This document shows, in pieces, positions 38,422 through 40,657 of a DNA stretch of 64,000 nt. Numbering within the stretch: the stretch's first letter is position 1; every line of letters begins with the position of its first letter. Source of the DNA: Methanosarcina sp. MSH10X1 (GTDB taxonomy: Archaea > Halobacteriota > Methanosarcinia > Methanosarcinales > Methanosarcinaceae); contig NZ_SCHL01000013.1 of assembly GCF_004099695.1 (NCBI RefSeq), positions 1-64,000 of the forward strand, read 5' to 3'. Under the pieces are notes generated by a model that saw nothing but the letters and a program-made list of their open reading frames with translations, searched no databases and had not been told where the DNA came from. The translations under genes and the position numbers were made by a program.

Positions 38422-38444
38422 TGTTTATCACTGAAGTATATTTG

Positions 38445-38483
38445 TGTACATCAACGTCTAATGAAGTACTTTCTATAAAAAGG
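38445..38483 (-). promoter_or_regulatory. Promoter and possible operator of the trp operon
   Basis: On the minus strand a TATA box (CCTTTTTATAGAAA, about 38483-38470) lies 25-30 bases before TGTACA at 38450-38445, which would cover the transcription start. AGTACT (38465-38470) sits between them. TGTACA is the box bound by the tryptophan repressor TrpY in Methanothermobacter; whether a TrpY-like protein acts here is inferred. Confidence 0.5.
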
Positions 38484-38732
38484 TTTTGGATGAAGGCTAA
38501 AACAGGAGCAGTGAATCACTCAGGGGTTTTTACTCACAAAAACAGAAATCGATGAGCTTCTTGCACTGAAGCGGGCTTATCTCCGGTAGCTAGACCCACA
38601 TTTTATCCTTTTTACCTAAAAGTCTGTGGCTTTTTCGAGCCAGCCGTCACCATTTACTAGAAAACCGCCCGGGTGCCATGGCGAACCCTATATATATTTA
38701 ACCAAACGTATGCACCGGATTAAGGTGCGTTT

Positions 38733-39368
38733 ATGGAAACGAAAACGATTAAAATCAGTGCAGAATTATATGCAGCGCTCGATTTTTGCAGAGATAGGGA
38801 CAGTGACAGCGGATGGGAATCCAAAGGCACGATAATTACAAAACTGCTGGCACGATATGATGATACCTGTCAACTTACACATGAGAAAGGTAATTACTGG
38901 TTTCTGATTAACCGCAGGAGACGGAAGTTTCATGAACTGTCGAATGCTACGGAGAATGTAAGAATCACTCAAGACCTTTACAACAGGCTTGATGAAGCTA
39001 AAATTCACCCTGATGAATCAATAAACACGGTCTTGCAACGCTTGCTGCTTTCATACTGTGGCAATAAGCTGGTGTACCGTATAAATACAAAATCAATTAA
39101 CTGCAAGGATTGTCAGGACTTGGCACTTTTCATGCGTGAGCTACTGCTGACAGAACCCAAATTCAGCAATGCATTGTCTATTGAGGTACTGAGCATAGAA
39201 AACTGCCCGGAATTGAAGAATAGGTACGAGAAAAATACGTTGCCTCTATCAATATTATACGACTTTGAAGAACGTGAGGTCTGGCGCATGGAAGGGAAAC
39301 ATGATCCGGAAGAGGTGAGAAGGAAATTAGAGTCGTTTATCGACTCTTCAGAAGAGTTAATTGGTTAA
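38733..39368 (+). CDS. Putative ribbon-helix-helix / thioredoxin-like fusion protein
   Basis: 211 residues, family not recognised as a whole. Residues 1-40 (TIKISAELYAALDFC to GTIITKLLARY) and 75-110 (NVRITQDLYNRLDEAK to SINTVLQRLLLSY) each read as a short strand followed by two helices, the CopG-type ribbon-helix-helix pattern. Residues 112-205 read as a thioredoxin fold: strand YRINTKSI, C124-K-D-C127, helix, strand SIEVLSIENCPELKNRY, cis-proline P171 in NTLPLSILYD, strand REVWRMEG and final helix DPEEVRRKLESF. The alignment to thioredoxin in the last 60 residues is striking. A redox-sensing DNA-binding protein is the natural inference. A TATA box CTATATATATTTAA lies about 40 bases upstream. 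It stands alone. Confidence 0.7.
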   Translation: METKTIKISAELYAALDFCRDRDSDSGWESKGTIITKLLARYDDTCQLTHEKGNYWFLINRRRRKFHELSNATENVRITQDLYNRLDEAKIHPDESINTVLQRLLLSYCGNKLVYRINTKSINCKDCQDLALFMRELLLTEPKFSNALSIEVLSIENCPELKNRYEKNTLPLSILYDFEEREVWRMEGKHDPEEVRRKLESFIDSSEELIG

Positions 39369-39597: not shown

Positions 39598-40008
39598 TCA
39601 GTTCAGCACCTCTAACATAGTTTTCAAACTGTAGGACATGCCTTCGATCACGGGTATGGTACTGTCAGGCACTCCAGGGGTCGAATTGGCAGCTTCCATC
39701 ATATCTGTATCCTCGATTGCAGGCTGCAGGAAAATATATTCCCCAACAAGGGCGTCCAGAGCCCCGTTTATGAGGTTAAGGTTGGGATCAAGCATTTGAA
39801 GCATGGATTTAGAGAAATTGAAACTTGAGCCCACTTCCTGTACCATCAGTTCAGTTTCATTTTGTGTTGTTATAGAATCTGTCCCACCGATTTGATCCTC
39901 CAGAATATCCTCCATTTTCTGATCCAACGCTACTGAGACCGGAAGCATCAGTAGCATAACCAGGAGAATTGCTGCTATCCGCAGGTAAAAAACCTGGCGT
40001 CTGCTCAT
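39598..40008 (-). CDS. Small secreted protein of unknown function
   Basis: 136 residues. An N-terminal signal peptide (MSRRQVFYLRIAAILLVMLL, then MLPVSVA) precedes an acidic, N- and E-rich soluble domain with no recognised family and no cysteines. ATG 40008 is preferred to GTG 40023, because GGGGGA then stands 9 bases upstream. It stands alone, with a TATA-like region beyond 40040. Confidence 0.65.
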   Translation of the reverse strand: MSRRQVFYLRIAAILLVMLLMLPVSVALDQKMEDILEDQIGGTDSITTQNETELMVQEVGSSFNFSKSMLQMLDPNLNLINGALDALVGEYIFLQPAIEDTDMMEAANSTPGVPDSTIPVIEGMSYSLKTMLEVLN

Positions 40009-40362
40009 AAGAATTTCCCCCACTATTACTTCACTAATTTAATAGAGATCCTCTATTGTTAATGTATAAACCAACTTGACTATAAAGAATTACCGATTCG
40101 TATAAAATTATAGAACAAGTATAACATATTCACAAAAGTAACGGACTTCTAAAAGAAACCCTGTAGTTAAGTAAAATCCAGCTTTTTAGCTGTTACTTTA
40201 TCTGAGCGAAGAAAAAGCAGCACTATTTATTCATAATATCCTCTTCCGTGAGCTCAAAAACAATTTTTTTTCTTCCCTTGAGTCCGCTTTTTCAATCGTA
40301 ACTCAGCATCTTTTTCCTTGAATTAGCCTTCTTGAGCGCAAGTATAGCGTCACTTGATCAAA

Positions 40363-40456: not shown

Positions 40457-40499
40457 GGTTTTATCGCAAACTTTTTCAAAAAAAGTTTGCGATAAAACC
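40457..40499. repeat. Perfect 20-base-pair hairpin
   Basis: 40457-40476 and 40480-40499 are exact reverse complements (arms begin GGTTTTATCGCAAAC) with a three-base loop. It lies 21 bases before a second perfect hairpin. Its perfection argues for recent origin or selection. Confidence 0.75.
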
Positions 40500-40520
40500 T
40501 TTTCTCAAAATGTTTTCGCT

Positions 40521-40543
40521 CAAGCCTTTTACAAAAAGGCTTG
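40521..40543. repeat. Second copy of the CAAGCCTTTT / AAAAGGCTTG palindrome
   Basis: A perfect 10-base inverted repeat with a three-base loop (ACA). Its arms are identical to those at 8144-8165. Confidence 0.65.
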
Positions 40544-40657
40544 CGGGACTCGGGCAGCGAAGCATTTACATGTAAGGTGAGCATAAAGTGCACAAAAAGC
40601 CGACAGAAAGTCCGGAACAAATAAAAATAAAATTAAAAGACTGGCAGAGGAAAAGCA

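Follow-up and report, generated by a model that had tools for sequence, protein, structure and literature searches.

A gene of Methanosarcina for a predicted tandem RHH and thioredoxin-fold protein, with a candidate operator upstream

The gene and its surroundings

The window, by which we mean the whole stretch of 64,000 nucleotides analysed from Methanosarcina sp. MSH10X1 (contig NZ_SCHL01000013.1), contains an open reading frame that opens with ATG and encodes a protein of 211 residues (Table 1). This open reading frame is a real gene. Its coordinates were confirmed in the sequence, as were the residues C124, C127 and P171 singled out in a preliminary description. We take the gene to be monocistronic and to lie between trpC and a gene for a small putative membrane protein, the next gene presumably encoding a cyclophilin-type isomerase.

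Table 1. Positions in the window of the gene, its predicted parts and the upstream elements
Feature	Positions	Strand	Basis
Whole gene, 211 aa, predicted tandem RHH and thioredoxin-fold protein	38733..39368	+	ORF, orthologues, pN/pS 0.14
Conserved promoter block GTGCCATGGCGAAC (core palindrome GCCATGGC), candidate operator	38673..38686	+	Upstream alignment, motif scan
TATA-box-like run, 36 bp upstream of the start codon (putative)	38689..38696	+	Read from sequence and alignment; assignment inferred
Predicted first RHH unit, residues 1-45 (strand 3-9, helices 10-18 and 31-41)	38733..38867	+	Predicted structure (pLDDT blocks 90, 85, 62, 88), internal similarity to second unit; weak by profile
C19	38787..38789	+	Kept in 11/11
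Predicted three-strand linker, residues 46-72 (strands 47-51, 54-59, 62-65)	38868..38948	+	Predicted structure
C46	38868..38870	+	Kept in 11/11
Predicted second RHH unit, residues 73-110 (strand 73-79, helices 80-88 and 97-112), VapB/DUF7557-like	38949..39062	+	Pfam, hhalign, predicted structure
Predicted thioredoxin-fold domain, residues 111-210	39063..39362	+	Predicted structure, Foldseek, structural Z, hhalign
CKDC, residues 124-127	39102..39113	+	This genome alone; aligned with CGNC of paralogue fragment
P171, candidate cis-proline	39243..39245	+	Kept in 11/11

An intact full-length copy is present in 11 of 30 Methanosarcina genomes, the window genome being counted among the 30, and the 10 other orthologues are full-length and ungapped with 73-79% identity. 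Purifying selection on the gene is strong, with a mean pN/pS of 0.14 over all pairs (pN 0.066, pS 0.466); by part, the ratio is 0.10 for the first RHH unit, 0.18 for the linker, 0.07 for the second RHH unit, which is the most constrained, and 0.17 for the thioredoxin part. Outside Methanosarcina, no full-length relative was found in searches covering the phylum (392 genomes) and the order (185 genomes), where matches were short and mostly covered the second RHH unit. The viral contigs, phages and plasmids that were searched also held no relative of the protein, and a virus or plasmid origin was rejected on that ground. In genomes that lack the gene, the trpC-side stretch showed no recognisable gene remnant at ten loci; the best matches at these empty sites (E 5.7e-5 for a 21-bp nucleotide match and E 0.35 for protein) are chance-like.

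Neighbours vary among the genomes while the gene itself persists. The interval from trpC to the gene (38422-38732 in the window, and loci L062-L069) is hypervariable: it measures about 0.3 kb here, whereas in other species it can reach several kb and hold unrelated genes. Downstream, the small putative membrane-protein gene (39598-40023) is convergent, is found in carriers and non-carriers alike and has no Pfam match at the curated level, and visual inspection showed two apparent inverted repeats at 40460-40545, ahead of the isomerase gene (around GCAAACTTTTT...AAAAAGTTTGC). In another genome, trpB (G018:C10:55786-56730) is recovered as separate matching segments and contains an in-frame TAG, perhaps an assembly error.

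Predicted architecture of the protein

Within the model of the whole protein the N-terminal half was poor (pLDDT 27-45). Folded alone, residues 1-112 formed two beta-alpha-alpha units, the best of five models reaching a mean pLDDT of 80.0 and a pTM of 0.75 with the strand blocks of both units at about 90, and the remaining four having mean pLDDT of 64.5, 54.6, 52.9 and 51.0. The rows supplied for this model comprised the orthologues, a fragment from genome G024 and seven lone RHH proteins (7 of the 16 loci L020-L035). The best Foldseek E-value for the model was 0.12, the leading matches being RHH pairs, and in a second structural comparison 8 of the 9 rows listed were AvtR, chains of the F-plasmid relaxosome or permuted single-chain Arc, with Z of 4.5-5.1, the best of which lies in the middling range for this tool. 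VirC2 and MJ0366, described as knotted RHH proteins in PMC5425179 (a further reference is PMC7555446), were not among the rows listed in the structural searches of the N-terminal model, which excludes nothing.

Against lone archaeal RHH proteins of the VapB/DUF7557 type, the second unit scored 94.9% in hhalign, the alignment having been built from 10 of the 16 loci after leaving out L023 (a near-copy), L025 and L031 (long unaligned leaders), L027, L028 and L030; the first unit reached 4.3% against the profile, a weak sequence support of its own, and its internal alignment with the second unit scored 46, a value without a shuffle control. Residues 75-105 matched the Pfam families VapB_antitox (PF02697, E 6e-4) and DUF7557 (PF24434, E 4e-4), both below the curated cut-offs; for VapB_antitox this means 20.9 bits against a cut-off of 27.9. 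By this computation the second unit is related by descent to RHH proteins of the VapB/DUF7557 type. The strand residues T3, T5, K7, S9 and E74-Q80 are invariant in 11/11, and the linker is the part least conserved between the window and the orthologues (0.589). The N-terminal half is predicted to be a single-chain RHH pair, and the two RHH-like units of the preliminary description are both present in the best model.

Residues 112-205 were predicted in thioredoxin order with block-mean pLDDT of about 58-82. The predicted elements (strand 113-119, helix 125-139, strand 148-154, helix 159-162, strands 172-176 and 182-187, helix 192-209) follow the beta-alpha-beta-alpha-beta-beta-alpha succession, with a proline preceding the third strand, by which we recognised a thioredoxin fold. 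Foldseek returned 96 PDB matches at E<=0.001, and the best 50 of the 96 were nearly all thioredoxins, thioredoxin fusions or designs. The second structural comparison was led by KaiB (5n8y_G, Z 10.5), Thermus thioredoxin (9.9) and SasA (6x61_D, 9.4), with a further SasA structure (1t4y) at 8.8. Against archaeal thioredoxins, hhalign gave 96.1% when a paralogue fragment was included and 65.5% for the orthologues alone; the archaeal alignment took 5 of 6 loci (L042-L045 and L047), L046 being omitted since its open frame is an unrelated 527-residue protein. The Pfam Thioredoxin family was matched by the paralogue fragment only, at E 0.0045, below the cut-off. As modelled, the last 100 residues or so adopt a thioredoxin fold, P171 taking the place of the expected proline, in agreement with the preliminary description.

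These structural matches bear on what the domain may do. One reading, which we consider possible but rather unlikely, is that it is a redox-dead protein-docking domain resembling SasA or KaiB: KaiB 5n8y_G and the SasA N-terminal structures 6x61_D and 1t4y rank, together with thioredoxins, within the best five structural matches, and active-site cysteines are missing in 10/10 orthologues. However, Z values within 1 of one another are tied, so that KaiB and SasA do not stand clearly apart from thioredoxins, the KaiB Pfam family gave no match at E<=10, and the CGNC motif of the paralogue fragment points to descent from a thioredoxin.

Cysteines and the history of the allele

The window protein has cysteines at positions 19, 46, 109, 124, 127 and 158. 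Amongst the ten orthologues, C19 and C46 are retained in all and C158 in two, C109 is peculiar to the window, and both C124 and C127 are missing throughout, position 124 being N, S or D and position 127 S or N. The preliminary description had suggested that DNA binding could follow redox state if C124 and C127 alternate between dithiol and disulfide, and had named homologues without the CxxC pair as evidence that would refute it; the orthologues are such homologues. Since a redox-active thioredoxin would be recognised by a family-wide CxxC and 0/10 orthologues have one, redox switching by C124 and C127 fails as a property of the family; of that description, the architecture holds and the cycling as a family trait does not. 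A redox role of CKDC is possible only as a special property of the divergent allele of the window genome. The C-terminal domain is under purifying selection in the absence of CxxC, which argues for a conserved function independent of C124 and C127, and any thiol sensing by the family would need C19 and C46, because these are the sole cysteines shared by 11/11.

In an alignment of 8 of the 11 orthologues together with locus L013, CKDC lines up with CGNC of the paralogue fragment; it also lines up with CPYC/CGPC of stand-alone archaeal thioredoxins. Between the window gene and five orthologues (five pairs with the window), dS is 1.56-3.0 as against 0.63-0.83 for trpC in the same genomes, and between genome G018 and three others it is alike for both genes (0.61-1.05 for the RHH-thioredoxin gene, 0.79-0.89 for trpC). 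Base composition is similar between the window gene and the compared orthologues. The high dS of the window copy relative to trpC points to a divergent allele, which transfer may have brought in as a replacement. Because on this clock the window allele lies outside the others compared, CKDC is plausibly ancestral. The trpC tree (15 genomes) and the trpB tree nest the window genome within the group, and the root of the RHH-thioredoxin gene tree is not fixed; had the gene not been replaced, the position of the genome inside the clade would make CKDC a secondary gain.

Three observations accompany this history. The window copy lies at an unchanged chromosomal position and has silent-site distances 2 to 4 times as large as those of trpC to the same genomes, a pattern suggesting that a divergent allele took over the site. 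Beside the intact copy of genome G018 lies the decayed paralogue fragment (L013:1474-1842), with a TGA just ahead of its RHH end and a thioredoxin domain with CGNC; it adjoins two ORFs of 328 and 330 aa that have no Pfam match. A second, more distant fragment in genome G024 (L012:1483-2040) retains a linker, an RHH unit and a probable thioredoxin-like part with GGEC, and has no usable start codon upstream.

It is improbable, in our judgement, that dithiol-disulfide cycling of C124 and C127 switches DNA binding by redox state even in the window genome alone. The column shared with CGNC and CPYC/CGPC, the dS that places the window allele outside the others tested and hence a retained CKDC, and the methanogen regulator MsvR, whose cysteine-based redox-sensitive DNA binding is described in PMC3729527, all speak for such a switch; the lack of both cysteines in every orthologue and the nested position of the window genome in the housekeeping-gene trees speak against it. 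We give equally little credence to a broader account in which a tandem-RHH regulator of Methanosarcina acquired a thioredoxin as its sensor, the ancestral dithiol switch survives in the window lineage, and most species lost the switch and kept the domain, thiol sensing there having perhaps moved to the invariant C19 and C46 of the first RHH unit. On that account the genus would contain natural variants of one regulator, redox-on and redox-off, acting at the same operator.

Promoter block, proposed mechanism and known systems

The 14-bp block GTGCCATGGCGAAC stands 60-61 bp before the start codon in 11/11 carriers, exactly in nine and with one change in two. Most of the upstream DNA past about 80 bp cannot be aligned; conservation is confined to the block, the TATA-like run and the sequence leading to the start codon. 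This conservation is seen although silent sites of the window gene are near saturation (dS 1.56 or more). Elsewhere in the 30 genomes, GTGCCATGGCGAAC occurs at 3 sites with at most one mismatch, against 7 for a reversed control pattern. Its near-uniqueness in each genome argues against a regulon beyond the gene itself. A wider regulon was accordingly rejected, given that the 14-bp block lies almost only at its own gene and that the window holds a single copy of the 8-bp core GCCATGGC, close to the chance expectation.

Conserved in all carriers and nearly unique in each genome, GTGCCATGGCGAAC is a candidate operator of the RHH-thioredoxin protein. It may instead be bound by another regulator, and its GCGAAC portion could be a BRE. 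A site directly upstream of promoter elements is usual for archaeal activators. A scan for bacterial promoters, a type of scan unsuited to archaea, gave nothing useful.

We regard as probable, with some reserve, that the gene encodes a monocistronic autoregulatory tandem-RHH regulator with a degenerate thioredoxin-fold sensor domain. This reading builds on the computed gene and its constraint, the thioredoxin fold, the descent of the second RHH unit, the loss of CxxC in 10/10 orthologues and the conserved promoter block; binding of the protein to GTGCCATGGCGAAC, the sign of the regulation and what the thioredoxin-fold domain senses are the parts that we infer. Both RHH units of one chain would pair with each other as a built-in 'dimer', as in AvtR, and contact DNA with the N-terminal strand of each unit (residues 3-9 and 73-79), the pair binding the conserved block directly upstream of the TATA box of its own gene. 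The C-terminal domain would descend from an archaeal thioredoxin whose dithiol enzyme function is gone in most species, and may now serve as a sensing or docking surface that alters DNA binding. A role as RHH regulator is favoured by the strongest selection falling on the RHH units, the invariant strand residues, the single-chain RHH look-alikes and the presence of the block in 11/11; it is weakened in that the first RHH unit depends on one structure model with almost no profile support.

A solitary antitoxin-like RHH protein left over from a toxin-antitoxin module, as the closeness of the second RHH unit to VapB/DUF7557-type antitoxin-like proteins might suggest, is very unlikely: no adjoining toxin gene was found, the downstream ORF of the window giving no Pfam match at the curated level, the neighbours change between genomes while the gene persists, and the RHH unit lies inside the chain, with a thioredoxin fold after it instead of a toxin-neutralising tail. 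PADLOC gave no match for a defence system; with no toxin-like neighbour found either, toxin-antitoxin and defence readings were rejected.

The preliminary description knew of no family with the order RHH-RHH-thioredoxin, and the open literature searched likewise held no description of a tandem RHH and thioredoxin fusion. Taken separately, both tandem RHH regulators and thioredoxin folds have precedents. If confirmed, the fusion would be a case of a thioredoxin taken up as the input domain of an RHH switch. As CxxC occurs in one divergent allele and in none of the ten orthologues, with a near-identical candidate operator, the role of the dithiol is directly testable in one genus. Methanosarcina genetics is established.

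Several known systems share part of this design. VapB_antitox and DUF7557 match the protein in sequence at residues 75-105, but consist of a single RHH, whereas the protein here has two predicted RHH units and no toxin partner that could be found. Archaeal thioredoxins (L042-L045, L047 and 3hz4 of Methanosarcina mazei) share the fold, the proline and the order of elements; they are, however, stand-alone proteins with active cysteines (CPYC/CGPC), which are lost in 10/10 orthologues here. Chains of the F-plasmid relaxosome (9f0x_E and similar), which we take to be probably TraY, and the permuted single-chain Arc 1u9p resemble residues 1-114 as single-chain RHH pairs; the former are a conjugation factor and the latter is engineered, and neither has a thioredoxin fold.

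MsvR, the redox-sensitive regulator of methanogens, would be the counterpart in function should the redox reading hold: according to PMC3729527 it binds its own promoter and carries its cysteines in a V4R domain, for which the protein here gave no match at E<=10. AvtR of Acidianus filamentous virus 6 (PDB 4hv0) lacks a thioredoxin-fold domain and matches with a Z of only 5.1 and 13% identity, but its two RHH motifs per chain correspond to those predicted for the protein described here, with which it also has in common an archaeal setting, a predicted monomeric mode of DNA binding and probable autoregulation; according to PMC5569661, the tandem-RHH AvtR monomer binds DNA and represses its own gene.
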